Assembly (NCBI GenBank): GCA_009783205.1
Contig: WRHO01000001.1
Coordinates: 1 to 64,000, forward strand
Reading direction: 5' to 3'
DNA length: 64,000 bases
Origin: Oscillospiraceae bacterium
GTDB taxonomy: Bacteria > Bacillota > Clostridia > Oscillospirales > Ruminococcaceae
Positions 42,174 to 62,604 of the stretch are shown here, one piece after another; the first letter of the stretch is position 1; every line of letters begins with the position of its first letter. The notes beneath the pieces were generated by a model. It saw nothing but the letters and a program-made list of their open reading frames with translations, ran no database searches and was not told the origin of the DNA. Position numbers and translations under genes: made by a program.

Positions 42174-43535
42174 ATGTACAAAAGAGTTTTATCACTATTG
42201 ATTGCGGTAACTATGATTTTCTCTCTCGCTACGGTTGTTTCGGCATCGGGTTCGGAGGAGTTAGTCGAGTGGGATTTTGAGTTAGGCGATTTTAACTGGG
42301 AGCTTGAAAACGGAGTCAGGGGTTGGAGTTCAAACGGAGTTTATGGCTTTGACGGCGATTTAAAGCTAAGCACGCTTTTAGAAGCAAAAGAGTTGGTGCT
42401 TGAGCTTTCCGAGTCCCCCGAGGGAAAGGCGGCGTCCTTCTCGCTACAATGGGCCGGAGACGGCAAAGTTGGGGCCGGAGACGGCAAAGTTGCACCGGGA
42501 ACCTTTGAAGTAATTGTTGATATTGCCGACGTTTATGACGAGGACACAAAAACAATAACCATTGATTTAGCAAAAGAAATCCAGGAACACTCGTATAAAG
42601 AGTTTGAAAAAAGCGAAAAATATTTACGTCTCGGCTTAAATTACCTCCCCAACGTAGACGCGCTTAGTATCGAAAAGGCTTACTTAAACGGGAAATCAAA
42701 AGCCTGTAACACCTGTAAAAAATTCCCCTGCGAATGTGCCGAGGAAAAATACTGGAAACTTGATTTAAAAGCTTTCACATGGGACAATGACGAAGCTAAG
42801 GGGTGGTACTCCGACGGCGCGGAGGGCGAGTCTCAGGATGCCGGGCCGCATAATACCGAGCTTGAGTTTAACGTGCTTATGAACGCTTTCGGCATCATTA
42901 TCGAAACCGACGGGATAGCCGAAGAAGGGGATGATTCGATTACTCTTAGCTGGGTAGGCGACACGAGAGCGACACGTTCGGGGTTCAGTATACCTTTAAA
43001 TAATGTACATGACGTGGTGGCTAAGAAAATGACGTTTGTGTTTGAAGAAACGTGGAATAATTTCAGAAAAAACACAAAATGGGCGGGAATCGGGTTCTCC
43101 TACCGACCAAATGTCGCCGCGCTCAATATCAAAAGCGCGACCTTGTTCGGCAAAGCCTGTGACAAACCCACCTGTAAAAGCAATAACGGCGACCCGCTCC
43201 CGTGTATATGCTCGAATATTACTCCGGAAGAAACAACTGCGGAAACAACTGCGGCAACCACCGAAAACACCAATGCAACAACGACGGGGAACAACACCAC
43301 CGCTCCTACAAATAACCCCACCGTTGCGCCGAGTAAAACTACTGCGCCCGTGTCCGGAACTACTGCGGCGTCCAACACGACCGGCGCAAACAACGCGGCA
43401 ACCACAACCCGCGTAACCACCACAAGAGCCGCCTCCGCCAACGATACGAACCCAAAAACGGGTGTTGCGTTCGCGATTGTCCCCGCGCTTATTGCGGGTC
43501 TCGGTGCGGTTGTATCGGGCAAGAAGAAAAAGTGA
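42174..43535 (+). CDS. NPKTG-anchored surface protein with two related beta domains
   Basis: 453 residues. A signal peptide is followed by two related carbohydrate-binding-like domains (about 30-175 and 193-327), each ending in a match such as RLGLNYLPNVDALSIEKAYLNG and GIGFSYRPNVAALNIKSATLFG. After each domain there is a Cys knuckle (CNTCKKFPCEC; CDKPTCKSNNGDPLPCIC). A Thr/Ala/Asn-rich linker leads to NPKTG, a hydrophobic helix and KKKK. NPKTG is a variant sorting signal. A 21-base tandem duplication lies inside the first domain. The gene has AAAGGCGG before the ATG. The function is probably surface adhesion or polysaccharide binding. Confidence 0.75.
   Translation: MYKRVLSLLIAVTMIFSLATVVSASGSEELVEWDFELGDFNWELENGVRGWSSNGVYGFDGDLKLSTLLEAKELVLELSESPEGKAASFSLQWAGDGKVGAGDGKVAPGTFEVIVDIADVYDEDTKTITIDLAKEIQEHSYKEFEKSEKYLRLGLNYLPNVDALSIEKAYLNGKSKACNTCKKFPCECAEEKYWKLDLKAFTWDNDEAKGWYSDGAEGESQDAGPHNTELEFNVLMNAFGIIIETDGIAEEGDDSITLSWVGDTRATRSGFSIPLNNVHDVVAKKMTFVFEETWNNFRKNTKWAGIGFSYRPNVAALNIKSATLFGKACDKPTCKSNNGDPLPCICSNITPEETTAETTAATTENTNATTTGNNTTAPTNNPTVAPSKTTAPVSGTTAASNTTGANNAATTTRVTTTRAASANDTNPKTGVAFAIVPALIAGLGAVVSGKKKK
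42451..42492 (+). repeat. 21-base in-frame tandem duplication
   Basis: Two copies of a 21-base unit (start GGCCGGAGACGGCAAAGTTG) encode AGDGKVG twice. The copies are near identical, suggesting a recent slippage event. Confidence 0.85.
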
Positions 43536-43550
43536 TTTAGGAACAGTTGC

Positions 43551-44624
43551 TTAGGAATCTCCAAGCAATTCACCGATAATCAAATTTGAAACTAAAAAGC
43601 CTTTTTGCGTGAGCGAAAGGCTTTTTTCGTTCAGCGTGATATATTCGGCAGAAAGTGTTTTTGCGCGTTGTGTCAAAAGCGTTCGTTCATCTATTGACAA
43701 TTTATGCAATTCGATTCCCTCGCTTAACCTCAACCCCAACATTATCCGCTCCTCAAATGTTCCCGGGTTGTCCTCGGTTGTGTAGGTGTTTTGAATCGGC
43801 GCGTTTATAAAGGCGTCTGTATCCCCCTTGACCGCAACGCGCTTCCCGTTAAAATAACCGTGCGCCGCCGCGCCCAAGCCTATATACTCCTCACAACGCC
43901 AATATTTTAGATTATGGCGACAAGGGTGACCGAAATTGCTTATTTCATATTGCGCGAACCCCTTGCGTTCCAAAAACCTCGCCACATTAATGTATAACGC
44001 CGCCACATCGTCATCGTCGAGCGTTACTTCGTTTTCATAAATGTATGCGGAAATATGCGTTATGCCGGGTAACGCAGTTATTGTATCGAGTTCGCGTTCA
44101 ACGTGCGGAAAGGTCTGTCCCGGGATTCCGAGCATAATATCCGCAGAAATGCTCAAAAAGCCGCACTCATACGCCGTTTTTATGGCGCATAGTGCCGCCT
44201 CGGCATTATGCCGCCTACCGATATTTTGCAGGATAGCGTTATCCAAGCTTTGTACCCCTATTGAAATGCGATTAACGCCCGCCCGCAAAAGCGTTTTTAA
44301 CATTTGCGGGTTTACGTCGTCGGGGTTTACTTCAATTGTAATTTCGGCGTCATTAGTGCGCGGCAAAATTGTGATAATTTCCGCAATTTCGTTGTGCAAA
44401 AGCGACGGCGTTCCGCCCCCGAAAAAAACCGTATCGAACAAAAGCCCTTGTCGAATTAATTCGCGGACATTGCGAATAACGGCGGATTTGTAAGAATCCG
44501 CCGTTATTTTGCTATACTTTACAGAATAAAAACGACAATATTTACATTTTGTAATGCAAAACGGTATATGAATATACAGCCCGAGCGTTTTTTCATTATG
44601 ACTGCCGTTTGTGTTCATATTCAT
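43551..44624 (-). CDS. hemW: radical SAM heme chaperone HemW
   Basis: About 357 residues from the ATG at 44624, which overlaps the kinase-like gene stop (ATGA); the longer frame uses a TTG inside that gene. The iron-sulfur motif is C23-x3-C27-x2-C30 (CITKCKYCRF), with GGGTPS, EVNPDD and GVQSLD following. The family was long called oxygen-independent coproporphyrinogen oxidase, but HemW inserts heme into proteins and lacks CPO activity. Last gene of the tubulin/GTPase operon, so probably an unrelated passenger. Confidence 0.9.
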   Translation of the reverse strand: MNMNTNGSHNEKTLGLYIHIPFCITKCKYCRFYSVKYSKITADSYKSAVIRNVRELIRQGLLFDTVFFGGGTPSLLHNEIAEIITILPRTNDAEITIEVNPDDVNPQMLKTLLRAGVNRISIGVQSLDNAILQNIGRRHNAEAALCAIKTAYECGFLSISADIMLGIPGQTFPHVERELDTITALPGITHISAYIYENEVTLDDDDVAALYINVARFLERKGFAQYEISNFGHPCRHNLKYWRCEEYIGLGAAAHGYFNGKRVAVKGDTDAFINAPIQNTYTTEDNPGTFEERIMLGLRLSEGIELHKLSIDERTLLTQRAKTLSAEYITLNEKSLSLTQKGFLVSNLIIGELLGDS

Positions 44625-45589
44625 AACAGTGCATTTCTCCAATCGTGCGGAGTGTAGAATATCGGCGGGATTTGTCTTAGGGCATTATCTGTTTTAAAAA
44701 CCGCCGCGAACATTCCTCTGACAACGGGGTGCAATGCTAACCAGCGTTTAACGTATTTTTCGGGATATGCCTCGGTTGAGCTTATACGATTGACGTTTTC
44801 GTTTTCGTCAAAAATAAAAATTGGGTATCTGTGATATTTACGTATCCATTCCGAATGGTCTTGCTTCGTTATATTGTGAACCCCCTCGAGCAACCGCCCT
44901 TGATAAGGGAGACGCCCCGTCAAAAGTCGAAAAAGTATCACAGCCATTGAAAAATAATCGGATATAACGTCCATTTTAGTGCTTTTTATTTGATAATAGT
45001 ATACGTCGGTGTAATCGGGGTTAATTCTACTCATTGAAACCCTCGCTCCGTCCGACAAGTCGCTGTATTCATGCGCCGAGAAGCTGAAATCAAAAATAAC
45101 CTCATTATCCATGTTGTAAAACATATTGTTGAACGAAAATTCATGATAAAGATAATTCACACCGTCTAATCCGCACCATGCTTCTATTAAGCTTTTAACA
45201 AGTGCCGCATTAGCTTCTGTATCAATATCCGCGCTCGTTAAAGAGGTGTTGGTTAATGAATCGCACATGGATTCATACCCGCCCAACCCCGATTTTAAAG
45301 GCATTAAGAGCGCGTAATCTTTTTTAAAGCTGTTCCCGCTTAGGTCAATAATGTCGGCGGGCCAAAGATAACCTTTAATGTTTATCGGGTTTCGAATTAT
45401 ATTGAACCACCGTTCTTTTTCGTTGTCAAATTCGCGCAAAAACTCCGGCGGAAACGGCTTTGTGTAAAACATTTTTCCGCTTCGCGCGTTGTTCAGCTTT
45501 AACGACTTTTTTCCAAAAAGCGTGATTGTATCCCTATTCGATTCACACTCGTATACATTAAAGCTGTTTATCATACTAAAATATTTCAT
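44621..45589 (-). CDS. degenerate Ser/Thr-kinase-like protein
   Basis: 322 residues, cytosolic. A kinase fold is suggested by the order of motifs: Lys44 (MFYTK) as the possible VAIK Lys, a hinge-like segment near 91-97, a catalytic-loop equivalent YHEFSFNN at 148-155 in place of HRDLKPEN, DFS at 167-169 in place of DFG, and the helical SDYFSMAVILFRLLTGRLPY. The Gly-rich loop is poor and the catalytic Asp is replaced by Glu, so it may be a pseudokinase that binds a partner, or a divergent active kinase. It starts in the stop of the GAP1-like gene and continues the GTPase operon. Confidence 0.7.
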   Translation of the reverse strand: MKYFSMINSFNVYECESNRDTITLFGKKSLKLNNARSGKMFYTKPFPPEFLREFDNEKERWFNIIRNPINIKGYLWPADIIDLSGNSFKKDYALLMPLKSGLGGYESMCDSLTNTSLTSADIDTEANAALVKSLIEAWCGLDGVNYLYHEFSFNNMFYNMDNEVIFDFSFSAHEYSDLSDGARVSMSRINPDYTDVYYYQIKSTKMDVISDYFSMAVILFRLLTGRLPYQGRLLEGVHNITKQDHSEWIRKYHRYPIFIFDENENVNRISSTEAYPEKYVKRWLALHPVVRGMFAAVFKTDNALRQIPPIFYTPHDWRNALL

Positions 45590-46917
45590 TTTCGCGAAAA
45601 CCTTTTAATAAAGCCTTTAATCGGATTAGAGGACGGCAACTCTTCTCCGTATTCTTCATATTCGCCGTCTGTAAAATCGCCGGTTATTTCAACCGGCTGT
45701 TGCTCCGACAATTGCTCCGTTGTGATTACAAAGGTCATCTCGCCCGCCCCTTCCACAAAGCTCGTTACGCCGTCTGCGGGACAAACATTACTTGTCTTAT
45801 CTCGTATGCTCGTATAAGTGCCGAAGTCGCAAAGTGCTTTTAATAAATCGTTATCCGTTTCGCTCGACAAAAGCGCGAGTTTTCTTATCAAAATGTCGTT
45901 TAAAACATCGCACAACGGAAACTTTGTTTTTTCGGAGAGTTTAAAAATAACCTTTAAAATTTGCGCGTCCAAAAGCGTCCGATTAGGCGGGTTTATACTC
46001 AAAAGCTCGTTAAGCTTTTTCAGAATATCATCAATATCGCCCTCTAAAATTCGGTCAATATTCTCCGCTTCATAAACTAATTTATATAAATTCAGCGACG
46101 TCGACTCGGTACAGCCGTATTCCCTCAAATCGCTTTCAAAGCTTTTAAAATAGTTTAAATTAGCCATTTTCGGCGTTTCGGCTATTTCGTCAATAAACCC
46201 GTATACCGAGAATTTTCTGAGCGTTAAATCGGATATATTAGTTTCGCCCGTCGCCAAATCGAAATACTTATACCTTTTATCATCGGGGAGAGAGTCATTA
46301 ACAAATTCGGGGAGTCTTCGGTCAATAATAATTGTTTTTGGAGTGAAATTTTCGGCTTCATATGTTGAAAACGAGAGGAGTCTTCGAAAAGGCAAAAACA
46401 ATAACGAATATATAAGACTCATTGTCGCGGCAATCGCTTTTTGCGATTTATCGGGCATAACGAGGTGAAGCGTTTCCTTTGCGCGCGAGGTCATAACGCT
46501 GTAAACGCATTTGAGCAAAAGAGCGATTTTATCCGAGTCCGCAAAAACGGGACGGTTATCGAGTTCTTCTTGCTCGGGTAAAACATACCGAATCGCTTCC
46601 TCGGGGGCTTCCGCAAATTGTTTAACGTCAAAAATAAAGCTTTTCGCGAGCATACTCGGTCGCCCCTGTTCATCTGCAAAGCCGTATTTTATCCGCGAAA
46701 GGTATGTGTTGCGGTTGTCCGATTGTAATTCAATCACGGTTTTTTCATCATTGTCCTCAACATCAAAAACGGGAGCGGGGGGCGTATTTGCGTTTTGAAG
46801 CGCGGCATATTTGCTTATTATCTCGGGGGGAATTTCCGGCGGAATATCCACCGCCTGCCACCCGTCCTTAATCCCCTGCCCCCCTAATCTCGTGAACCCT
46901 ATTTTATAATAATCCAT
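45586..46917 (-). CDS. GAP1-like GTPase-associated protein
   Basis: 443 residues. It resembles the GTPase-associated protein 1 family: an N-terminal MDYYKIGFTRLGG...GWQAV-type domain, then FADEQGRPSMLAKSFIF, a helical region and LPFRRLLSFSTYEAEN, a hallmark of that family. These proteins are encoded beside TRAFAC-type (double-GTPase) GTPases in predicted conflict systems and are thought to bind or regulate them. AGGAGTATAAAAC precedes the ATG. It overlaps the kinase-like gene by four bases. The exact biochemical role is unknown. Confidence 0.8.
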   Translation of the reverse strand: MDYYKIGFTRLGGQGIKDGWQAVDIPPEIPPEIISKYAALQNANTPPAPVFDVEDNDEKTVIELQSDNRNTYLSRIKYGFADEQGRPSMLAKSFIFDVKQFAEAPEEAIRYVLPEQEELDNRPVFADSDKIALLLKCVYSVMTSRAKETLHLVMPDKSQKAIAATMSLIYSLLFLPFRRLLSFSTYEAENFTPKTIIIDRRLPEFVNDSLPDDKRYKYFDLATGETNISDLTLRKFSVYGFIDEIAETPKMANLNYFKSFESDLREYGCTESTSLNLYKLVYEAENIDRILEGDIDDILKKLNELLSINPPNRTLLDAQILKVIFKLSEKTKFPLCDVLNDILIRKLALLSSETDNDLLKALCDFGTYTSIRDKTSNVCPADGVTSFVEGAGEMTFVITTEQLSEQQPVEITGDFTDGEYEEYGEELPSSNPIKGFIKRFSRK

Positions 46918-46936
46918 GTTTTATACTCCTAATCGC

Positions 46937-48601
46937 CTAATCGCCGTTATCGGAAAACATTTCCTTGAGTCGCTTTATAATCGGCATTTTGTTACCGTCC
47001 GAATCCCTCGAACAAACGGGACAGTATTTGCTGTTAATGGGGATTTGAGCGGTTAAACATTGAGGATTAACACAAGTCCATGTTTTTTCGGGTTTGAGCG
47101 GCGGCGGGTCTTCGGGCGGGGGAATCGCCCCTTTACAATCAATATACCCGAATTGATAAAATAACCAGTATATGGGTTCCTCGATTCGTTTTGGAAAGGG
47201 GGGCGCGGCGGGGGTCATAAACACCTCGCCGCTCTCGTCTTTTATTTCCGCAACCGATGTGCCGAGTGCCGAGACGAGAAAATAATTATAGATGTCGAAA
47301 AAGTTAATTAAACAGGTTCGCAACCTGTGTTCATGGTTGCGAACAAATGTTTTCACCTCGCGTTGAACCGTGCCGTAATCCTCCGAATTAAACAAGGGGA
47401 GCGATTGTCCGCGTTGATTTTTTATAGCGACGACATTTTCAATGTTATTTTTAATAATCTGCCCCGCAACCATATCACCTTTAGAAATAGTAACGCAAAC
47501 GGGAACCTTTTTTATTTGGTCTTTCTCTTGAAAATAATTGTATATAGCGTCCATTACATTTTCGGGGGAGTTTTTATAATCGCCGTCAAACTGTTGATTA
47601 GGGTCGAGGAGAAGAATAATCGCGCCGGAGTGTTTGATAAAACACCCGAATTTTTCCATCTGTTTTTCGTCAACACAGTTTTCGCCCGAAATGTCATAAA
47701 AAACAATTGTGTTGGTTATAAGTTGATTAGATTTCCTTATGCTCAAATCAAAGCACAAGGGCTGTGATAAGCCGCCCGCCAATGTACCCTCGGGGAGCTT
47801 TTCGCCCATTTTAATGGGGTTTGCGTCGCGAAAGTCCATTGCCGCCTTGCTTGTCGGGGTTGATGTAATGCCCACCTCGCTGCAAAACTCGCTGAAATGG
47901 CGGCAAAGCTGTGAAAGATATACCGTTTTTCCCGACGCCGTAATACCTATAACCGATACTAACTTGACCTCGTTTTCGCCGTATTTTGCCGGCAAGGGAT
48001 TGTGACATTCGGGACAGATTCGCCTTGTTGTTTCGACGCCGTAAATGTCTCTCGCCGAGTAAAGTATTCCCGCCTCGCTCGTCTTTGTAAATTTGATAAG
48101 CGGGCTGTTCACGGGGAGAACGGGTCGTTTTTGCGGAGGAATCTCAATTTCGCGCCCCGCTTTATTTGTTGTGGCTTTTTCCCCGCTTCCGCCGCTGAAC
48201 CGCGCCCAAAACTTTTTGTATTTTTCGCTTTCGCCGGATAAAAAACACCGGTTTTGTTCGAATTTCTCCAAAACCGCTTTATCGCCGAGAAGCTCAATTT
48301 CCTCTTTCGTTCGCCCCAACTTATGGGGGTCACAATCCTCCTCCGATTCAAAAACCGTTTCCATACGGAACCAAACCGAGCTGTGACTGAACTCCTCAAA
48401 ACAATAAGGACACATAATAACCTTTTCGGGCTTTGCTTCGGTCGGCGGGTTGTCAGTGTGTTTAACCTTAGGGTTTACGGGATTTGGCTTTTTTACATTT
48501 TTTACCGAATCGGCAGAGTCAAATACCGGCATTGGCGGTAGGACTCTTGAAGCGGTATTGTTCATACTCCCGGTTCTTTTATTTAAATGATTTTGTTCCA
48601 T
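46937..48601 (-). CDS. zinc-ribbon TRAFAC-type GTPase
   Basis: 554 residues from the ATG at 48601 (TAGGAGCGATA before it); a longer frame would overlap the upstream gene. A zinc-ribbon CPYCFEEFSHSSVWF is followed by an inner ribbon (CPECHNPLPAKYG). The GTPase core has Walker A near 219-226 (GITASGKTVYLS), Walker B/G3 IVFYDISGEN and G4 TISKGD. A C-terminal zinc ribbon (CVNPQCLTAQIPINSKYCPVC) ends it. Matches the GTPase partnered with GAP1-like proteins in predicted conflict operons. It is probably the regulatory switch of this module. Confidence 0.82.
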   Translation of the reverse strand: MEQNHLNKRTGSMNNTASRVLPPMPVFDSADSVKNVKKPNPVNPKVKHTDNPPTEAKPEKVIMCPYCFEEFSHSSVWFRMETVFESEEDCDPHKLGRTKEEIELLGDKAVLEKFEQNRCFLSGESEKYKKFWARFSGGSGEKATTNKAGREIEIPPQKRPVLPVNSPLIKFTKTSEAGILYSARDIYGVETTRRICPECHNPLPAKYGENEVKLVSVIGITASGKTVYLSQLCRHFSEFCSEVGITSTPTSKAAMDFRDANPIKMGEKLPEGTLAGGLSQPLCFDLSIRKSNQLITNTIVFYDISGENCVDEKQMEKFGCFIKHSGAIILLLDPNQQFDGDYKNSPENVMDAIYNYFQEKDQIKKVPVCVTISKGDMVAGQIIKNNIENVVAIKNQRGQSLPLFNSEDYGTVQREVKTFVRNHEHRLRTCLINFFDIYNYFLVSALGTSVAEIKDESGEVFMTPAAPPFPKRIEEPIYWLFYQFGYIDCKGAIPPPEDPPPLKPEKTWTCVNPQCLTAQIPINSKYCPVCSRDSDGNKMPIIKRLKEMFSDNGD

Positions 48602-48620
48602 TATCGCTCCTACTAATACG

Positions 48621-49310
48621 TTATATCTGTTTAATTTCATAAGCGTCAAAAGCTAAGCTTTCAACCCTTGGCGTTTTCCCCTTGTACTCGGGAATTTGTA
48701 TCGTCTTGTTTAACATTTCTGCGGTTATCGGAAACTTAAAGGCACAGTTGTCATAGCCGTAGCATAACGAAAAAGCGGATACATTTTGTCCGCTCGAATA
48801 TCCCAATATCTCGGGCAGAGTTACGTCGTAATAAATCCGCTCCTCCTCTTCCGTTTTAAAAAGCTCTCTCGTTTTTTCAAAAAAACTCTTTTTTAAAACG
48901 GGTGCTTTTTTTACAGAAACCTCAACAATTGATGAAACCGAACATTGATAGAAACAGGCAGCAGTAGGATTATAAACGGTCAACTCTTCACCCCCGTCGC
49001 GCTCGTCGAGGCTACAGGCGAAGACGGCGTAATTTGCGGGCTTTACAGGAAAAATGTACGCATTAATGCCGAGCCGCGGAAGTATTGTATAATACATTTC
49101 CCCCTCGAGTCGCGTTTCCGTTCCCGTTTCAAATTTGCCGTTAAAACGAACGTCGATATCCTCTTGTGTAAGACTTATATCACAACCGAATTTATTTCGG
49201 ATAATCATAAAGTGCGTCGCGCCCACCGATTCCCACTTGAGCGAATCGCCCCTTTGTGTGAGATTAGTTGCATAATGTTCCGAATTAAAGTTTGTTAGTT
49301 TTATGTTCAT
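48621..49310 (-). CDS. beta-rich protein of unrecognised family
   Basis: 229 residues. No signal peptide or membrane helix is seen, so it is cytosolic. The pattern is mostly short beta strands (LKWESVGATHFMIIRNKFG, MYYTILPRLGINAYIFPV), with a second half rich in alternating hydrophobic residues, suggesting two beta-sandwich domains. There is no catalytic motif and I do not recognise the family. AAAGGAG precedes the ATG. It is encoded between the 631-residue protein and the GTPase, so it is probably an adaptor of the complex. Confidence 0.7.
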   Translation of the reverse strand: MNIKLTNFNSEHYATNLTQRGDSLKWESVGATHFMIIRNKFGCDISLTQEDIDVRFNGKFETGTETRLEGEMYYTILPRLGINAYIFPVKPANYAVFACSLDERDGGEELTVYNPTAACFYQCSVSSIVEVSVKKAPVLKKSFFEKTRELFKTEEEERIYYDVTLPEILGYSSGQNVSAFSLCYGYDNCAFKFPITAEMLNKTIQIPEYKGKTPRVESLAFDAYEIKQI

Positions 49311-49337
49311 AATCCACTCCTTTTTAGGAACATTGTC

Positions 49338-51233
49338 TTAAATCTCGGCTGATAAATCGTTCTCGCGACATTCGTAAAACCACATAGATTCTATAATATC
49401 GTTACTGTGTGTATTATAGAAGGTGCGCCCCGTATTTGGGGGGAGTTCCCTATTTTTTAATCGTTCATATAATCCGTTTTCTTCAATCGGAGAACGCGCA
49501 GACGTGTTCAAAAAATACGCTTCAAATGTTCTGTTGCTCGGGAAAACGGTTGCAGAATAAAAGCGAACCTTTTCGTCTAAGCTTTCGATAAGCTCGCCAA
49601 TAATCTGGCTCGTTGCAATATGAATATCGTTTATGCCGAGCCGCTCATACATTTCGTCAATATACGAATGACGATAAACCTCCGCGCTCGAGAAACAATC
49701 CTCCATGGCGGAGAAAAGCGCGTCGGCAACATCGTCTTCGTTATTGTGAACCGAGAAAACTTTGTTGAATATTATGCGAGAGTTTTCCGCGTTTAAAAAC
49801 CTATTTGCCTTATCGGTGTAAAATTTAACAAGGTGCATACCCGTTCCGATTTCGCGAATTGCGGGGAACATATCGACCGATTTTTTTATACGTAAAAATC
49901 CCTCAACACAATACTTTGCCCTTATCGAGAGGTCGGCAAGGGTTTCGCGAATAATACCGTTCACGGCGGAGGCGACCCCGCTTTTTAACTTGACCTTCAC
50001 CGCGTCAATTGCCGTACAATCGGCATAGGTGAGCGCGTCGAGCATGGTTGCGGCTTTATCCAAAACCGTCGATATAACCGCGTCGGGAACACCTTCATAA
50101 AGACCCGCCGCCGTTAAATATTCACAAACCCTTTTGACTAATCGCGTTCTTATTTCGTCTTTATTTTCGTTTATTTGTCTTTCGATAATCGGAAAATGAT
50201 TAGCCTCCAAAAAAGCGGTTAAACAACCATATGACGCTTTATTAACCTCGGCAAAGCTCTTTGACAAATTCGGTTTCCCCGGTAACAATTCGAGATATTC
50301 GTCAGACGGGAGATGACCGCTTATCTGTGCAAATACCCGCTCATACAATTCCGATTGCCCCTTATCAATCTCCAAAATTTTCGAAAGCTTAATCTCATCT
50401 GCCTTCTCCGCTTTATTATCGCAGAGCATTTCGAAAAGCTTTGCGATAATCGTCTTTAAGGTAATGACGGCTATATCGGAAATCGGCTTCACCGAACACG
50501 AATACGCGGCGGTCAACGCGGGGGTTCCCGCTTTATAAAGATTCTCCCGTCTTTCGTTACGGTTGGCGTTATCGTCGTTTATCGTGTTAGACAATAAAAT
50601 GATATTTGCCGATAAGTCGCCGATTGAATCGGTCGCATATGCTCCGTTGCGAAGTCTTCGCCCGAGTATAGCTACCGAGTCGTATAAGTGAGAATTATTT
50701 CGCCGCTTATATATTTCACACAACCTTTGTTTTATTATAACCGACTTTTTCTGATGATTAAGTTCATCGTTGAGGTTTATTATAAACATTGTCGTAAGCG
50801 GAGTATTGAGCATTTTCTTTACGTTCTCTACCGAAAGATACCATTTTTCAAAATCGTCGGCGGCGTTTTTTGTATCAACGCCGTCTGTGTCGAGGATACA
50901 ATATAACGAAATACCCGACGGGTTCATATAAATGTTTGAAAAGCTTAAAAGCTCGGTCATATTCTCGCCGAAGGTTTCCGCGTCGACATCTTCCCCGTTA
51001 ATATTCTTCAAAGCGTCGGGTTCGAGGATATAAAAAGGAATTTGGTTGGCGGCTCCCCCCCAACCGTGAATCAGCTTTTTTGATACGGCATCATGTTCAG
51101 ATGCAGACTCCGCGCCAAAATACATAACGCAGGTAGGGTAGTATGGCGTAGGATAAACATAGTTGTAATCGCCGCCCGTTCGACTTTTTAAAAGGTCGGA
51201 AATTTTTTCTTTTAATCCGTTTGTGTTAATCAT
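49338..51233 (-). CDS. 631-residue protein of unrecognised family, tubulin partner candidate
   Basis: The N-terminal 280 residues look alpha/beta: YNYVYPTPYYPTCVMYFGAE, a Gly-rich loop (IHGWGGAANQIPFYI) and long stretches such as TTMFIINLNDELNHQKK. The rest is mostly helical. There is no signal peptide, membrane helix or known motif. It overlaps the tubulin-like gene by four bases (ATGA), so the two are translated together, suggesting a stable partner or nucleator. I cannot name a family. Confidence 0.7.
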   Translation of the reverse strand: MINTNGLKEKISDLLKSRTGGDYNYVYPTPYYPTCVMYFGAESASEHDAVSKKLIHGWGGAANQIPFYILEPDALKNINGEDVDAETFGENMTELLSFSNIYMNPSGISLYCILDTDGVDTKNAADDFEKWYLSVENVKKMLNTPLTTMFIINLNDELNHQKKSVIIKQRLCEIYKRRNNSHLYDSVAILGRRLRNGAYATDSIGDLSANIILLSNTINDDNANRNERRENLYKAGTPALTAAYSCSVKPISDIAVITLKTIIAKLFEMLCDNKAEKADEIKLSKILEIDKGQSELYERVFAQISGHLPSDEYLELLPGKPNLSKSFAEVNKASYGCLTAFLEANHFPIIERQINENKDEIRTRLVKRVCEYLTAAGLYEGVPDAVISTVLDKAATMLDALTYADCTAIDAVKVKLKSGVASAVNGIIRETLADLSIRAKYCVEGFLRIKKSVDMFPAIREIGTGMHLVKFYTDKANRFLNAENSRIIFNKVFSVHNNEDDVADALFSAMEDCFSSAEVYRHSYIDEMYERLGINDIHIATSQIIGELIESLDEKVRFYSATVFPSNRTFEAYFLNTSARSPIEENGLYERLKNRELPPNTGRTFYNTHSNDIIESMWFYECRENDLSAEI

Positions 51234-54200
51234 AAATTTAAATAGCGGCTCATAAACGCCGATAATTTTTCAATAAACCTTTCAAAAAACTGTCTCGCCC
51301 GTCCCGTTTCTTCGGGATTTGAAGCGGTGAACGAAGCCAACCGCCTTCCTAAAACTTCCTGTGAAACTTCGCGCGCAACAACGTCACAAGCCGCGCCAAC
51401 CTTTGTCGGAATCGGGTATTCGTCCAATATTGCGGCAACCGCCGAATTCAACGCCCGTTTACTTTGAGCGTCCGCAGCTCTGTAATTTTCGAGTGCCTGA
51501 TAAAGCGGTATCGCGCCTTTTTGCATACTCGGCTTTGAGAGGAAAACATCTTCCCCGGTCAAGTCGTCGGCATATTTAATAAAGCTTCCGTCTATGACTA
51601 TAACCCCCGCAAAAATCGCATTGGTAAAATCGTCGAACTCAATATCGACTTTTGGGGCGGAAGCCTCAACCCACCTATCATATTCCGTGAGAATATCGAG
51701 TTGTTTTTGAACAATTTCCCTATATTTCGGCGCGGCGGCAAAATGGTCAATTCGCACATCGCGTTTATTGCTTTCGGGAAGCTCGGCATAACCGTCGTTT
51801 TCGATTTCGTGGCTCTCGTCGCGACTAAACTCGAGCGTTAAAGCTTTAAGAAGCTCGTGCGCCTTATACCGCTCTTCTGCCGACAAATTCGAAGCTTTCG
51901 ATTCCTCATAAAGCGTCCGCGCCCGTTTTACAAACTCGCCCGTTATAACCTTAATCCAATATGATTTTCCGTTATCCCCTTTAACAATAATCTCTCTATC
52001 TTCTGCTTTAGCATACAATTTCCGCGCTTTTTCGGCTATACTCCTAAGCTCGGAATTGTTAGAGCTGTTCATTGTACTCAATGGTGACGGCGACGGCAAA
52101 ATGTGCCAATTTCGCCCCGTTTTCGACAATTCGCCGTCTTTGAAACCCCTTCCCTCATACAAATGCTTACCTATTTTTGTGCTTTCCGCCGAACGATTTT
52201 CATACTGTAAAAGCCCCAAATACCCATACAAGGGAACCCCCACTAAACAGCGTATTACGGTTATTCTGTCCGTTATATCCGAAACGCGAACGGTCAGAGA
52301 TTCGTCTTTGTTTGAAAGAAGCTTTGCCGCTTCAATAACCTCGCTTGACTCGGACGGAGCGGAGATAAAACCGACACGCGACGCCGCGTTAATATCGTAC
52401 ATATCCGACGTCCAAAACAGAGGGGCGGATTTGCCGTCTAAATCCTGCATAATGTCCTCGCGTATCGCCTTTTTCAATTGTTCGGGGTCGGGCGTTTTAT
52501 ACTTTTCCTGTAAATACTGGGTCATTGTCTTTTTTGAATTTTCGTTGAATAGGGTGGTAAAATACTTTGTAACGAGCCGCACAATATCGTTTTCGTTTCC
52601 CGTTATCCACGCCTTTATACCTCGCGGTGAAAGCATTAACGCCATGAACTCCGACATTTTTTCGCCGACCTCCATAGCCTTAATTGTACGGTCGAGCGAA
52701 TCGCGCAAATCCTCAATTCTCGCAATAGGAAATTCATAAGCGACGCTTTTACTCGCTTCGCTCTCGAGATAATTATAGTTTGCCGAAAAGGTATTAATGA
52801 GCCTTTCTACGGTATCTCTGAACACATCGGTAAAAACATTAGCTAACTTATTGAGCTGTATTTTCAAAAGCTCCATAGCGTCAACCATTTTTGAATAAAC
52901 CGATATACGCGCCTGTAAAAGTGCGTACTCGCGGGAACAATGACAGTATGCCGCATATCGCTTTTTCCCGTTAAGCATATTTGTCGAGCCGTCGTGAAAA
53001 AGCTCGCGCGCCTCAATTCGGTCTTCCTCAAACGCTTCCTGATTAACCAATTCCTGTTGAAGTTTTATTCGCGCCTGTTCAATATGCGCGGAGAACAAAG
53101 CGATTAAATCGCCGCCTAAGGTATGCCGAAGAATCGCCGCCGCATAATACGGGCCTTTATTATAATTGAGCATTATTGTTTTTAAAACGTCGAAAACCTT
53201 TGCGGATACGGAGCGCGCGCCGCTCGTATTCCCCGCCGAACCTACCTCGGCGGCAATACTGTAATCGGTAATTTCGCGGGTGAGTACGTCAAAGTTTTGT
53301 GATAACGCTTTTTCCGCTTTTTGCAGACAATCAATATCGAAATATTCGGTGGTCAAGCCCTCGTCGGTAATGGCGTCCTGCCACCGGACATCGGGAATCG
53401 GAAACGCCATATTGACTCCCGCCTTCAATTGATTTTCGAGCGCGTTATAGCTCAACGCGTTTTTGTTGACAAAATCCTCGAACTCGTTTTTTGACGGCAG
53501 AATACTTTTTGCGCGGTCAAACTCTCTGAACATTTTTGCCGACAAATATGTTATAACCTCTTTAAAGGGTAGGGTTGCGGAGGACGCGCCTAACGCGCAA
53601 TATTCGTACATCGCGCCGTGTTTCTTATTTATTTCCTCTTTTTTTGAAACATAGTTGGATATATGGGATTTAAGCGTAAAATCCTCATTAGTTTTTGCGA
53701 CAAACTCCATAAAATAATCGGTAACGACATTCATTGCATAGTGATACGCGCCGTCTATTACGTTCCCCGACGAATCCTGTGCCGTAATTAGGTGGCATAT
53801 ATCGACGGGGGGGGCAATGCTCTCGACCGTTCCTATGCCCGGATAATACTGTGACCATTTATCGCCGTTTCGTTCAAAATTAGTACAGTAATCGAACTCC
53901 TTCATAGATGCGTAGCCGTTTACTTTAATATACGATGACGCTTCGTTATCTATTCCGGGTTTTGACAAATTCACATCGGGCAAAAAGAAATAACCGCATA
54001 TATTAGCGGAAATCCCCAAATCCTTCAAACAATGTCGAACAAGGTAAGAGGCGTCCAAAAAAATACCCGCGCCCGTTCCGCCGCTTATTCCCGAAAAAAT
54101 GTGTACATATACCTCGGGGTCGGTTAGCCCCGTCATGGCTTGTCTCACTTTAGCGCAAACCTCATCGGTAAATGCGCGAACCTTTTCCATAAAAAGGTAA

Positions 54201-54646
54201 CGCCCTAACTGTCTTACGCCGCCCGCGCCAAATGCGGCGACCTTGACCTTTATGCGGTCATGCTCCAACCATTCTTTATATGCGGGGTCATTAGAAAGGC
54301 TTTTTTTGTTCGCCTCAAAAACCTTTGTCATGTCCCCGGAATGTGAAATATCAAAAAATTCTGTATCTAAATCAATCCTGCTTATTTGCGTCGATTTATT
54401 GTTTGCATTAGTCAATCCCGTTTTATCGGTATCGACCAAAAGGAATTTAATGTGCGAGTATTCCGGGACGGTCGAATCGGGGTTGTCGGGTTTGAGTCGG
54501 TTGTATACCTTCGCCTTGAGATTTTTGAGACAGTCGACGCCCGTTCCGCCGAGTCCGATTGCTAAAACGGCGCAATTATCCTGTTCATATTGTTGTCTCG
54601 CGTCTATAATACCGCCGTCGCGGTGCAAAAGTAATTTTTCATACAT
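51230..54646 (-). CDS. tubulin-like GTPase, large cytoskeletal protein
   Basis: 1138 residues, much larger than FtsZ. The N-terminal 400 residues match the bacterial tubulin-like (Tubulin_2) family: a nucleotide loop AIGLGGTGVDCL (29-40), FLLVDTDKTGL, AFGAGGVRQLG and the tubulin signature equivalent SGISGGTGAGIFLD (186-198). The remaining 700 residues are mainly helical with coiled-coil-like parts, then a C-terminal region of unknown type. It should bind GTP and may form filaments, but the T7-loop residue needed for hydrolysis could not be placed with certainty. AGGAGTATAAAGC precedes the ATG. It follows the vWA gene by 15 bases. Confidence 0.85.
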   Translation of the reverse strand: MYEKLLLHRDGGIIDARQQYEQDNCAVLAIGLGGTGVDCLKNLKAKVYNRLKPDNPDSTVPEYSHIKFLLVDTDKTGLTNANNKSTQISRIDLDTEFFDISHSGDMTKVFEANKKSLSNDPAYKEWLEHDRIKVKVAAFGAGGVRQLGRYLFMEKVRAFTDEVCAKVRQAMTGLTDPEVYVHIFSGISGGTGAGIFLDASYLVRHCLKDLGISANICGYFFLPDVNLSKPGIDNEASSYIKVNGYASMKEFDYCTNFERNGDKWSQYYPGIGTVESIAPPVDICHLITAQDSSGNVIDGAYHYAMNVVTDYFMEFVAKTNEDFTLKSHISNYVSKKEEINKKHGAMYEYCALGASSATLPFKEVITYLSAKMFREFDRAKSILPSKNEFEDFVNKNALSYNALENQLKAGVNMAFPIPDVRWQDAITDEGLTTEYFDIDCLQKAEKALSQNFDVLTREITDYSIAAEVGSAGNTSGARSVSAKVFDVLKTIMLNYNKGPYYAAAILRHTLGGDLIALFSAHIEQARIKLQQELVNQEAFEEDRIEARELFHDGSTNMLNGKKRYAAYCHCSREYALLQARISVYSKMVDAMELLKIQLNKLANVFTDVFRDTVERLINTFSANYNYLESEASKSVAYEFPIARIEDLRDSLDRTIKAMEVGEKMSEFMALMLSPRGIKAWITGNENDIVRLVTKYFTTLFNENSKKTMTQYLQEKYKTPDPEQLKKAIREDIMQDLDGKSAPLFWTSDMYDINAASRVGFISAPSESSEVIEAAKLLSNKDESLTVRVSDITDRITVIRCLVGVPLYGYLGLLQYENRSAESTKIGKHLYEGRGFKDGELSKTGRNWHILPSPSPLSTMNSSNNSELRSIAEKARKLYAKAEDREIIVKGDNGKSYWIKVITGEFVKRARTLYEESKASNLSAEERYKAHELLKALTLEFSRDESHEIENDGYAELPESNKRDVRIDHFAAAPKYREIVQKQLDILTEYDRWVEASAPKVDIEFDDFTNAIFAGVIVIDGSFIKYADDLTGEDVFLSKPSMQKGAIPLYQALENYRAADAQSKRALNSAVAAILDEYPIPTKVGAACDVVAREVSQEVLGRRLASFTASNPEETGRARQFFERFIEKLSAFMSRYLNL

Positions 54647-54661
54647 AAAAGCTTTATACTC

Positions 54662-56692
54662 CTATCTCCTTCGACCGCTTTTTTGGCTCTCAAACCGTAC
54701 AATTATCCCCTTTGTGCTTTCGAGCCGCCTGCTTATTTGTACGGGGAAGCCCTCGCCGTCAATTCTGAACCTTTTGTCTTTCACGCCCCCGCCAAATACA
54801 TTTTCGTTAGTCTTCAGGGAAACGTGTCGCTTGCCGCTCGCTTGAAAGTAACATTTTCCTGCGTTAAAACCAATATTCGGGAGCTTACGCGCGGGCAATC
54901 TGCGCTTACCGCGTTTCGGCGCAGTAATAACAATTTCCTCGTAATATTCGTCACTTTCGTGGTTAAAAAACTGTACGTAACAGATTCCGTAGAAACGCTT
55001 ATTAAGATTGAGCCAGGCGATTGTCCCCAATACCGCCAACACAATAAAACCGCCGCCCCCCAATAAAATCAACGTCCACATTGTAACATTAACGGTTGTT
55101 ATATACACGTTAAAGCTGACGCTTCCGCCGAGCGGGTCGAGCGCGCTTATTTCAAATGAGCCTTTGCTCAAGCTGTAGGAATGTATTACTAATTCAAGGT
55201 TTTCGATATAATACTCGTTGTCGTTATATGCTGACGAGACGACGGCATATCGCAACTCCCGCCCCAACGGGTCGGTTGCGGCTGTTGAAAGGTCAATGTA
55301 AGCCGTATTGTCCGAGAAGGGCATTAGGTAGACTTTATGCTCAATGTTCTCGTTGAAAACGGGCGGGGTGTTGTCTACATCAATGGTGATACTCCCCGCG
55401 TCAAGCACATGACCCCAGCCTTCTATTTTTGCCTCGATAACATACGCTCCGCTTTCCTGCGGCTGTAATTGGTAATGGAAAACAGTACCCGGAATAAAAT
55501 CTATCCCCGCCGTAAGAAACCTCATTTCATTTTCAACACCGTTAATACTCACCGTAGCGGTAAAGCCTTCATATAACGCGTCATCTCTTACCCGTTCGCC
55601 CGCCTGTAAAAGACTAACGGTAATATCAATATAATCGTTTAACAAATATCCCGCATCTTGATTTGCTTGATTTGGCGGACTGACTTCCATATGAGCGGTC
55701 AAGTTAGTATTAAAAATCAACTCAATGCGGATTTTATCGCCCGGTACGCCGGTAATTGCATAGCTCCATTCGCCGGGTAAAGGCTCGGTGAATTTAACAA
55801 CCGAGAATGTATCGGAGCTGTAGGTCGACCGCCGAAGACTTTCTTTGGTGTGGGTCTTGCCCGTCGGGTCGGTCAATTGATAGTCTTCGGCTAACCCCGA
55901 AAGGATTAGGTTGATTTCTTCAACACCGATTGCGGGAACCTTAAATGTCCCCTCGACAACGCCCGACGACGGAAACTCGGTTAAATTTTTACTGTAATCG
56001 AGCGAGTTAAAAACAACTCGATAGAACATATCATAGACATTTTCGAGGTCGTCCGCGGTCGTTACCTCTTCAAAAAGCCCGCCCGTAGCGTTGGATATTT
56101 GCGACAATTCGTCCGGACTTGCCGTTCCGTCGGCATTAAGGCTGACGCTATGTATAGTGTACCCCGACGCGCGCGCCCTCTCAATTGCGTCGGCTTTTTG
56201 AGCCAATGAAAGCGTTTGCTCGTCGGGGGTAGGCATATCGGTATTGCCGTCGCTCAACAAGAGTATGATTGAATCCAACTCGGGGTTTTCACCTTTGTCG
56301 AGCAATGTAATCGCGGCGGTTAATGCACCGCCGATATTTGTATATCCTTGTGGTTTAATTTTGCCAATCTCGTCTACAATTTCCTTTTTTACTTCAATAC
56401 CGTTGACATCTGTGACGGGTCGTTCGAGTACAACGTCCTCGGAAAAAACAACCGTTCCGATTGTATTGCCGCGCTCCGCCAACAAAGCGACAAACTTCCC
56501 TATTGCCTCAAAGCGCAGCTCGCTCGGGTCGGTTTCCGACATTGAACCGCTCGCGTCAACCACCAACACAATGTTGTATCTGTTGTGGGTGGGCCTCGAA
56601 TCGGCAGAAAAAACGAAAACAGGTGACACTAAAGCAAAGCCGCAAAATAGCAGCAAAGCTAAAGCTATAACCCGTTTTACCCTATTATTCAT
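54662..56692 (-). CDS. exported vWA-domain protein with membrane anchor and cytosolic tail
   Basis: 676 residues. A signal peptide is followed by a vWA domain (about 38-235) with the MIDAS motif DASGS (Asp46, Ser48, Ser50) and LLLSDGNTD. Beta-rich extracellular domains follow (about 250-540), then a membrane helix (MWTLILLGGGGFIVLAVLGTIAWL) and about 110 residues in the cytosol with basic patches (APKRGKRRLPARK). This topology could carry an outside metal-dependent contact to the cytosolic tubulin-like protein encoded 15 bases downstream. AAGGAAC precedes the ATG. Confidence 0.85.
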   Translation of the reverse strand: MNNRVKRVIALALLLFCGFALVSPVFVFSADSRPTHNRYNIVLVVDASGSMSETDPSELRFEAIGKFVALLAERGNTIGTVVFSEDVVLERPVTDVNGIEVKKEIVDEIGKIKPQGYTNIGGALTAAITLLDKGENPELDSIILLLSDGNTDMPTPDEQTLSLAQKADAIERARASGYTIHSVSLNADGTASPDELSQISNATGGLFEEVTTADDLENVYDMFYRVVFNSLDYSKNLTEFPSSGVVEGTFKVPAIGVEEINLILSGLAEDYQLTDPTGKTHTKESLRRSTYSSDTFSVVKFTEPLPGEWSYAITGVPGDKIRIELIFNTNLTAHMEVSPPNQANQDAGYLLNDYIDITVSLLQAGERVRDDALYEGFTATVSINGVENEMRFLTAGIDFIPGTVFHYQLQPQESGAYVIEAKIEGWGHVLDAGSITIDVDNTPPVFNENIEHKVYLMPFSDNTAYIDLSTAATDPLGRELRYAVVSSAYNDNEYYIENLELVIHSYSLSKGSFEISALDPLGGSVSFNVYITTVNVTMWTLILLGGGGFIVLAVLGTIAWLNLNKRFYGICYVQFFNHESDEYYEEIVITAPKRGKRRLPARKLPNIGFNAGKCYFQASGKRHVSLKTNENVFGGGVKDKRFRIDGEGFPVQISRRLESTKGIIVRFESQKSGRRR

Positions 56693-56711
56693 TGTTCAAA
56701 GTTCCTTAACA

Positions 56712-57815
56712 TCAATTCAAAATAATGGTTAATAAATAATCGTTATTATCATAATCGTCTATTTGATACATAATAGTATCGGTACTACTGTAATCATATA
56801 AAAAGTCCAAATCGCTTTTATCGACCGGGAAGGTGCAAAGAACTTCATAAAATGTTTCGCCCGATACATATAACGACGAGAAAATAGCCTCGAGATTTTG
56901 TAACGACGACGCCATAATCCCTTTATATCTGAAATAATTATACTTAGATGAATTTGCCGCGGGATAGTAAGATTTTTTCCATATATGCGTTGCGGACATA
57001 ATACCGTCGCTTGTGTTAAGGTAGCGATGCGAGCGTTTTTCGCTATTGTCCTCCTGTCGGTCGTTCCAGGTTACGTCTACATGATACCATTCGGGCTTTC
57101 CGAAACCGGAATTCATATTGACGAGGTTCCATGCGTGACTGTCATCACCCGCATTCCCCGTAATAATCATGCTTTCGATTCCCGATAAATAGGCTAACAT
57201 TTGAAAAGCCTGTGAATACCCCTGACAAACCGTTTCGCCCTCGATTAACGCACCGTAAACATTAAACGCATTTTCATTGTTTGCGTAGTTATTGTCATAC
57301 ACAATGTTCTCGGTCAAATAGTTGTGGATTATTTCGACCTTTTCAAAGGTCGAACCCGAAACGCTCTTTAATATTCCCTTTGTTTTATCAAAAACCTCTT
57401 TCTCTTGCGAAGTAAGCTTGGACAAATCATCGGTTTCGTTCGCTATTATGACCTTCATGAACATTTCATACTGTGGGATTATCTCGGCGTCTAAATAACC
57501 TCTGCTCCCGGTATATTTTATTTCCATGCCCTTTATGCCGTATGAAGCTAAAATTTCGGCGTTTTCGTCATAATATTTATCTAACTCGTTCCAAACCTCA
57601 ATATCCTTTATTCGAGCTTTTGATGACATGATAAAATTATCGCTTATTAAAGCGATAATTTTATCAAGCTCATAGTGAGATTCTATTATATCCTCGCTTA
57701 TTAAATCCGGCGTGTTGATATTAAAGCTGACCTCGCCTAATCGGTCAATAAAGTCACAGCCCGCCTGAACTAAAATAAAGAATACAATTAATGAACCGGT
57801 AAATAATTTCTTCAA
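56712..57815 (-). CDS. transglutaminase-like lipoprotein
   Basis: 367 residues with a lipobox-like end (LVQAGC, Cys20), so it is on the outer membrane face. The transglutaminase-like core has Cys197 (GETVCQGYSQAF), His227 (DSHAWNLV) and Asp247 (WYHVDVTW), a complete triad. The start is a TTG at 57815 with AAAAGGGAAC upstream; no ATG keeps the signal. The family includes cysteine proteases and cross-linkers. As the first gene of the tubulin/GTPase operon it may trim or cross-link wall proteins such as the neighbouring Cys-rich products. Confidence 0.82.
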   Translation of the reverse strand: MKKLFTGSLIVFFILVQAGCDFIDRLGEVSFNINTPDLISEDIIESHYELDKIIALISDNFIMSSKARIKDIEVWNELDKYYDENAEILASYGIKGMEIKYTGSRGYLDAEIIPQYEMFMKVIIANETDDLSKLTSQEKEVFDKTKGILKSVSGSTFEKVEIIHNYLTENIVYDNNYANNENAFNVYGALIEGETVCQGYSQAFQMLAYLSGIESMIITGNAGDDSHAWNLVNMNSGFGKPEWYHVDVTWNDRQEDNSEKRSHRYLNTSDGIMSATHIWKKSYYPAANSSKYNYFRYKGIMASSLQNLEAIFSSLYVSGETFYEVLCTFPVDKSDLDFLYDYSSTDTIMYQIDDYDNNDYLLTIILN

Positions 57816-60425: not shown

Positions 60426-60461
60426 GGGGGTTTCTCCTTTGAAAAATTATTACATATACAC

Positions 60462-60491
60462 ATTATAACAGTTCCACCCGACAATTGTCAA
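60462..60491 (-). promoter_or_regulatory. promoter of Cys-rich copy 1
   Basis: On the minus strand TTGACA (60486-60491) and TATAAT (60462-60467) are separated by 18 bases. The spacer and -35 lie inside the palindrome at 60468-60501. Confidence 0.75.
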
Positions 60492-60501
60492 GTGGAACTG
60501 T
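60468..60501. promoter_or_regulatory. nested palindrome over the copy 1 promoter
   Basis: Outer 10-base arms ACAGTTCCAC / GTGGAACTGT are perfect, and the centre GACAATTGTC is itself a 10-base palindrome; only the 2-base joints break the symmetry. It covers the -35 box and abuts the -10. The same element is upstream of copy 2. A repressor site is likely; the regulator is not in the window. Confidence 0.75.
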
Positions 60502-60537
60502 AATATTTTTTTAATTAAATTTTACAAATGTTACAAA

Positions 60538-62484: not shown

Positions 62485-62519
62485 GGGCTTTCTCCTTTGA
62501 AAATTTATTACATACACCT

Positions 62520-62549
62520 ATTATAACAGTTCCACCCGACGGTTGTCAA
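62520..62549 (-). promoter_or_regulatory. promoter of Cys-rich copy 2
   Basis: On the minus strand TTGACA (62544-62549) and TATAAT (62520-62525) are 18 bases apart, the same layout as copy 1. Confidence 0.75.
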
Positions 62550-62559
62550 GTGGAACTGC
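62526..62559. promoter_or_regulatory. palindrome over the copy 2 promoter
   Basis: Arms CAGTTCCAC / GTGGAACTG are the same as upstream of copy 1. The inner palindrome is changed (GACAACCGTC on the minus strand), so the outer arms are the conserved part. Confidence 0.7.
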
Positions 62560-62604
62560 AAAATATTTTTTATTTTTTTTAAATTGTCATAAAATGGGTG
62601 TAAA

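Follow-up and report, generated by a model that had tools for sequence, protein, structure and literature searches.

An operon of tubulin-like, DO-GTPase, GAP1 and vWA proteins in an Oscillospiraceae bacterium, with a transglutaminase-like gene added outside its conserved core

The window analysed here is a stretch of 64,000 nucleotides from contig WRHO01000001.1 of an Oscillospiraceae bacterium (assembly GCA_009783205.1), and our subject is one operon within it: eight genes on the minus strand, lettered A to H in the order of transcription and running from position 57815 down to 44621. All eight open reading frames were found, and their coordinates confirm what an earlier note, made from the letters of the DNA alone, had described, namely eight genes on one strand that either overlap or stand no more than 27 bases apart. 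The features are as follows.

A: 56712..57815, minus strand; exported transglutaminase-like protein, probable lipoprotein
B: 54662..56692, minus strand; vWA membrane protein
C: 51230..54646, minus strand; Tubulin_2 (FtsZl1) protein
D: 49338..51233, minus strand; putative diverged second tubulin-like subunit without a guanosine triphosphate (GTP)-binding loop
E: 48621..49310, minus strand; predicted all-beta protein of two FNIII-like sandwiches (moderate confidence)
F: 46937..48649, minus strand; DO-GTPase2 flanked by CxxC pairs, its start perhaps the ATG at 48601
G: 45586..46917, minus strand; short GAP1 of 443 residues
H: 44621..45589, minus strand; probable pseudokinase
HemW: 43551-44642; housekeeping gene directly after H

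Gaps of 19, 15, 27 and 19 nucleotides separate A from B, B from C, D from E and F from G, while C-D and G-H each overlap by 4 nucleotides; E and F also overlap, although with the ATG at 48601 as the start of F they would be 19 nucleotides apart. Promoter-like sites (31 against 27.5 in shuffled sequences) and terminator-like sites (27 against 21.7) occur near the shuffled level, so the limits of the operon are not fixed by them, and an NCBIfam scan of the operon proteins added nothing specific.

The first two genes encode the proteins predicted at the membrane or outside. A exceeds the Pfam cut-off for Transglut_core (E 2.9e-10) and carries intact motifs for the Cys-His-Asp triad (TVCQGYS, SHAW and VDVTW), by which it is a member of the transglutaminase-like superfamily that may act as a protease, a cross-linker or otherwise. 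A signal segment spans residues 5-23 with a cysteine at residue 20, and because the lipobox, QAGC as read by eye, is imperfect, a lipoprotein is likely and not certain; the earlier description of a transglutaminase-like lipoprotein thus stands for the domain and is softened for the lipid anchor. B matches VWA (E 9.2e-17, Pfam) with an intact metal ion-dependent adhesion site, DASGS, and has an N-terminal hydrophobic segment at residues 8-26, one helix near 534-552 and a following tail of 124 residues with 25 lysines or arginines and 11 aspartates or glutamates. This layout recurs in all nine B proteins compared, the window's included, with basic residues outnumbering acidic ones in tails of 111-138 residues, which supports the single helix and basic tail proposed before; a contact of the tail with the tubulin-like protein is something we infer.

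C is a Tubulin_2 protein (187 bits against a cut-off of 27, E 7.9e-55) with an intact GTP-binding loop of the T4 type, SGGTGAG, at residue 187, and it is the sole Tubulin_2 match in its genome; a sequence comparison with the PDB returned one chance match for C (E 0.62) and none for D. D belongs to no Pfam family and, taken by itself, gave no Tubulin_2 match. A profile of five D proteins, however, when compared by hhalign with the second tubulin-like protein of about 800 residues from the GAP1-N2 operons of family f129, reached a probability of 92.5-93.6% (E 2e-7 to 5e-7) in an alignment that spans most of the length of D. Of seven copies of the 800-residue protein, four in turn matched 34 loop-bearing Tubulin_2 proteins, taken as a profile, at E 8.5e-7 to 3.4e-6 and the remaining three at 0.0015, 0.0055 and 1.1, with shuffled sequences at 1.1 or worse; profile against profile, the two families matched with 9.3% probability in smaller alignments and 91% once all 34 Tubulin_2 rows were used. 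Single D sequences scored 0.0068 (from locus L065) and 0.25 (the window's) against loop-bearing Tubulin_2, where shuffles began at 1.1 and one type II control protein reached 0.063, and 3.9e-5 (L065) and 0.16 to 1.1 (the other four) against the 800-residue profile, where shuffles began at 0.5. Because these single searches are weak, the case for D rests on the profile-profile comparison, on which it would be homologous to the second tubulin-like protein, though much diverged from it. The GGTG loop is absent from all seven of the 800-residue proteins and all five D proteins, and is present in five of the six Tubulin_2 proteins that a first loop pattern had missed. An AlphaFold2 model of D from three sequences was unusable (predicted local distance difference test score 37.2). 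Two other identities for D were ruled out by hhalign: a diverged second vWA protein (probability 0.3) and the protein of about 680 residues found in type II Tubulin_2 operons, which are treated below (0.5%).

A search for D in 181 genomes of the family gave full-length matches to just two, the window's and G756, and one weak match of 86 residues in G670 (E 3.5e-4). Two other gene rows touch on D. Genome G062 has two loop-bearing Tubulin_2 genes as well as D, making three tubulin-like members in one row (L050:3325-12450, minus strand), and in G201 (L044:12874-17279) genes of 621 and 242 amino acids lie between tubulin and GTPase, in the places and with the sizes of D and E, and match neither the D nor the E profile.

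E models as two FNIII-like sandwiches and is, with moderate confidence, an all-beta protein; as a sequence homologue of the protein of about 213 residues in the f129 operons it found no match (0.2%, hhalign). F exceeds the cut-off for DO-GTPase2 (35.3 bits against 27, E 1.2e-8) with its motifs intact, comprising a P-loop GITASGKT, a Walker B segment YDISGE in which the glutamate is kept, and TISKGD, and its CxxC pairs resemble a zinc ribbon. G lies just under the 24-bit cut-off for GAP1-M (22.6 bits, E 1.3e-4), and its orthologue in the sister genome G1231 lies under that for GAP1-N2 (22.9 bits against 24, 9.6e-5); homologues at L049 (33.5 bits) and L079 (137.9 bits) exceed the GAP1-N2 cut-off, and an iterated profile joins the window's G to GAP1-N2 proteins. 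Orthologues of G are 420-508 residues long in G1233, G1234 and the sister, and 736-1147 in other relatives. H matches Pkinase under the cut-off (17.5 bits against 31.7, E 0.0028, residues 154-249), and its catalytic loop is degenerate: across seven aligned orthologues, with the motif placed by eye, the HRD aspartate has become glutamate in six and asparagine in one, and the lysine two places further on has become serine in six and asparagine in one, while the loop asparagine is kept in five and the DFG aspartate in all seven. Judged by eye from these motifs, H is a probable pseudokinase. The families named in the earlier note therefore hold over their cut-offs for A, B, C and F, just under for G and under for H; the two genes it had left as unknowns, D and E, have no Pfam family, and would fit the second tubulin-like protein and the FNIII-like part respectively.

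Eight genomes were read for the operon as a whole: the window's, the sister G1231, G1232, G1233, G1234, G756, G062 and G232. Apart from G1234, these make up the tubulin clade to which the window belongs. All eight have B, C, E, F, G and H (some cut by contig ends), and seven have D, its place in G1234 falling between contigs; because the core genes recur in this way, their adjacency is not chance. G756 has B-C-D-E-F-G-H on one contig, followed by a 343-residue protein, a multi-helix protein and a second vWA protein; G062 reads B-C'-C-D-E-F-G-H; and G1231 to G1234 and G232 keep the same order in contig pieces, the exception being that B is apart from C in G1231. In genomes of family f129, homologous gene classes follow one another in this order too: vWA, tubulin 1, tubulin 2, vWA 2, the 213-residue protein, DO-GTPase and GAP1-N2 (3.1e-40). 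The place after H is taken by HemW in the window and the sister, where the second vWA gene is absent; a homologue of the 343-residue gene follows H in five of the six non-sister relatives, the sixth, G232, having been outside the comparison, and a vWA gene follows in four of the six read there (G1233, G1234, G756 and G232, and not in G1232 or in the stretch read of G062). The 343-residue homologues (L090:657-1688, L112:5416-6501, L113:3813-4844, L114:4695-5783 and L089:4879-6111) have weak Sel1, TPR or TspO-like matches, and the sister holds a second, distant vWA gene (26% to B) at a contig end, L115:2169-3149, after a gene that looks integrase-like by eye. Between window and sister, the proportions of nonsynonymous and synonymous differences across all eight genes are 0.09-0.30 and 0.73-0.82 (saturated); identity is highest for C, at 86% over the 821 codons read, and is 56% for HemW.

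Further afield, 27 of the 295 order genomes have Tubulin_2, and DO-GTPase2 exceeds its cut-off in five, four of which have it on the same contig as Tubulin_2 (hypergeometric P 2.7e-4). An alignment of window-type tubulins used as query gave matches at E <= 1e-10, with many partial ones among them, in 9 of 391 genomes of the class, 9 of 197 of the family and 9 of 398 of the phylum, each count including the window's own genome. The four named GTDB matches are one Oscillospiraceae and three Clostridiales metagenome-assembled genomes, whose isolate codes we take to denote termite gut. In the tubulin tree, the window's protein falls in a group of eight rows, supported at 100/100, made of such operons. 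Plasmid and phage records gave few and distant Tubulin_2 matches only (five plasmid records and one phage record), so there is no sign of a mobile carrier, and comparing the operon proteins with PHROGs gave nothing useful. One distant match (24.7%, E 2e-7) lies at MT836542.1:6943-7944, a record named "Bacteriophage sp." from human faeces.

The operon very probably belongs to the tubulin theme of GAP1-N2-type DO-GTPase systems (FtsZl1/Tubulin_2-vWA), in a lineage-specific form, and this classification taken together with the layout is only a shade less secure. FtsZl1, which is the Pfam family Tubulin_2 (PMC9871819), has been described in operons that also encode vWA, protein kinase and diverged GTPase proteins, for which membrane remodelling was proposed (Makarova and Koonin 2010, PMC2875224), and DO-GTPase/GAP1 systems have been described and predicted to act in biological conflict (Kaur et al. 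2020, PMC7159879). In the latter work, FNIII proteins accompany the GAP1-N2 type, of which about 52% come with tubulin-domain genes, there are two genes each for the tubulin domain and for vWA in the forms from Firmicutes, the second vWA gene being a usual and not universal part of the theme, and GAP1 is the usual site of effector fusions. Such Tubulin_2/GAP1-N2 systems occur in many phyla (PMC2875224, PMC7159879), and a predicted membrane-stress role of DO-GTPases has been cited (PMC11237479). The earlier note could not name the full set; tubulin, DO-GTPase, GAP1 and vWA in fact make up a published theme (PMC7159879, PMC2875224), and the lead it gave towards conflict systems dependent on nucleoside triphosphates proved sound, the class being described as GAP1-N2/DO-GTPase (PMC7159879). 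A literature search, mostly without subscription papers, returned among the matches listed no experimental study of these systems.

On the prediction of Kaur et al. (PMC7159879), the operon might be an anti-phage or conflict system, in which vWA and FNIII parts would sense invaders, GTPase and GAP1 set the threshold, and the tubulin-like parts and outside enzyme respond. The patchy distribution, 27 of 295 order genomes, agrees with this, as do add-on genes that vary, with A in the window and other genes after H elsewhere. However, PADLOC (PADLOC-DB of 2023) gave no system match, returning only kinase models for H, one weak model for D (E 0.02) and none for the other six at E 1; no recognisable toxin, nuclease or pore appears among the eight genes in Pfam; and the GAP1 of the window is short, although GAP1 is where effectors are usually fused (PMC7159879). 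We regard a conflict role as rather unlikely.

A is the real novelty of the operon and lies outside its conserved core: it adjoins B only in the window and the sister, two of the eight genomes, and the earlier inclusion of a transglutaminase in the full set does not carry over to the core. Directly upstream of B there is no match to A at L003 (MinC), L005 (PucR-type regulator), L065, L050 or L072, and at L004 just a partial frame of 96 residues. Perhaps, then, A is an unrelated transglutaminase that landed beside B by chance and is linked to it without function; its restriction to two of eight genomes would fit, and Transglut_core genes are common, with at least one in 38 of the 39 genomes searched. 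Against this, contig C86 of the sister holds A and B together (57% and 68-69% identical to the window) and apart from C to H, which lie on other contigs in the window's order down to HemW. A and B therefore travel together, and B need not adjoin C, with the proviso that the relatives are metagenome-assembled and the sister placement could be an assembly error. Transglut_core is also found near Tubulin_2 above expectation: within 12 kilobases in 11 of 26 order genomes against 1.2 expected, a limit picked after the match list had been viewed, so that the count within 5 kilobases is reported too, 4 of 26 against 0.52 (P 0.0015). Linked cases fall in 6 of 10 families, and genomes of one family are not independent. 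These counts exclude G067 (a 28-bit Tubulin_2 match only), the short matches G280:C2, G136:C3 and G232:C57 and one same-frame row of G062; they treat G243 and G152, on contigs under 5 kilobases with neighbours unread, as misses; and they include G187, which is under the Pfam cut-off and whose protein matches A at 7.9e-11. A chance landing thus seems to us doubtful.

In seven of the linked cases, the type II Tubulin_2 loci L082-L088, the transglutaminase domain lies near the C-terminus of a long protein (1742-1930 residues, with several N-terminal helices); this holds for seven of seven such proteins, which were chosen for a nearby transglutaminase match and of which two are cut by the stretch end. 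Since seven of eight long proteins from other type II loci are without the HAW motif, the transglutaminase is a variable part of these loci. The remainder of the long proteins at L082 and L083 gave weak or no Pfam matches. Across the 40 rows of the tubulin tree, linkage is gained or lost at least seven times, with gain and loss not told apart; the tree omits G089 (linked), G049, G243 and G152, whose tubulins were passed over in the choice of open reading frames, and G1234 (a fragment), some of its 'none' labels come from short contigs, and L055 is labelled fused on the HAW motif alone, with a separate transglutaminase gene also there. In the main texts, Kaur et al. mention a transglutaminase once, as a rare VMAP domain (PMC7159879), and neither PMC2875224 nor PMC7159879 mentions one in tubulin systems. 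A wider reading, to which we give a low probability, is that Tubulin_2-vWA machines acquired a transglutaminase-like enzyme, outside or tethered to the membrane, on several independent occasions, either as an exported protein standing alone beside vWA, as in the window, or fused to a multi-helix membrane protein, as in type II. On the same reading these systems would be inside-to-outside machines, in which a GTP-dependent cytosolic assembly, made here of GTP-binding and loop-less subunits, would control covalent processing of proteins at the surface.

Surface-like genes flank the operon. Upstream of A, at 57897-63999 on the minus strand, lie three secreted-looking, threonine-rich proteins; the two complete ones are also cysteine-rich, with a dockerin-like motif seen by eye (RCGDVNGDGEIAIFDF) and without a Pfam match, and in the sister (L110:1-1179) A-B likewise comes after a relative of the third. 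Downstream are a 1260-residue surface protein at 38119-41901 (minus strand) with SpaA domains (9.4e-13) and, by eye, a C-terminal LPETG-type sorting motif, and a secreted-looking 453-residue protein at 42174-43535 (plus strand) with a C-terminal NPKTG-like motif and no Pfam match, which is conserved beside HemW in the sister as well (L111:4481-5833). The three upstream proteins, one of them with a relative before A-B in the sister, and the SpaA-type protein downstream would suit an envelope-remodelling or surface-adhesion machine in place of defence. In such a machine a tubulin-like polymer would shape membrane and surface proteins or set their position, and surface proteins would be cross-linked by the transglutaminase. 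The membrane remodelling proposed for FtsZl1/vWA operons (PMC2875224) points the same way, as do hydrophobic segments in A, B and the type II long proteins, by which portions of these proteins would lie outside or at the membrane. Neighbourhoods nevertheless vary among relatives (MinC at L003, the PucR-type regulator at L005), so that as partners the surface genes are not conserved, and a core envelope function would not be expected to occur as patchily as in 27 of 295 order genomes. An envelope role is a serious possibility that we still place below even chances; the DNA does not tell it apart from defence or from secretion.

Returning to the GAP1-N2-type DO-GTPase system, a membrane-spanning, GTP-controlled sensor and effector mechanism can be offered tentatively. 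The outside vWA domain of B would use its metal site to bind a ligand or a protein of the envelope, and the single helix and basic tail would relay its state to a cytosolic assembly of C and D, with C as the GTP-binding partner and D as the partner without the loop. F and G may set the threshold for assembly, with the FNIII-like E and the pseudokinase H as adaptors. A, anchored outside beside B, might provide the output by cleaving or cross-linking proteins of the envelope, a part of the scheme that we hold just as tentatively. Within a published class, two features of the window most deserve attention, the link to a transglutaminase and the putative tubulin-like partner without a loop: the recurrent link offers a concrete, assayable output for Tubulin_2/GAP1-N2 systems, the pairing of a GTP-binding tubulin-like protein with a loop-less homologue poses a direct biochemical question, and the operon, compact at eight genes and with just one for vWA, makes such systems tractable.

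Among known systems, the operon can be set beside the GAP1-N2 DO-GTPase tubulin theme, with which it shares a DO-GTPase with zinc-ribbon-like CxxC pairs, a probable GAP1 directly downstream, one or more tubulin-like proteins, a membrane vWA protein with its vWA domain outside and a predicted FNIII-like protein; it differs in that D is without a GTP loop, no second vWA gene follows H (as in the sister), GAP1 is short, a pseudokinase follows GAP1 and a transglutaminase-like gene is added. Like the FtsZl1 vWA operons (PMC2875224), it combines an FtsZl1 protein with vWA, kinase-like and diverged GTPase genes, whereas its eight genes are without an OmpA-like partner, its kinase looks inactive and a transglutaminase is present. 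Type II Tubulin_2 operons from the same taxonomic order, made up of vWA, tubulin, a protein of about 680 residues and a multi-helix protein of 1250-1930 residues, likewise have a vWA-membrane protein adjoining Tubulin_2; unlike the window, they have no match to D, E, DO-GTPase, GAP1 or H in the stretches examined, and their tubulins form a separate clade of 17 rows (100/100). Finally, the MoxR-vWA-transglutaminase loci (TgpA/DUF3488) also place vWA-type and transglutaminase genes side by side, with the AAA+ protein MoxR in place of the tubulin and GTPase.

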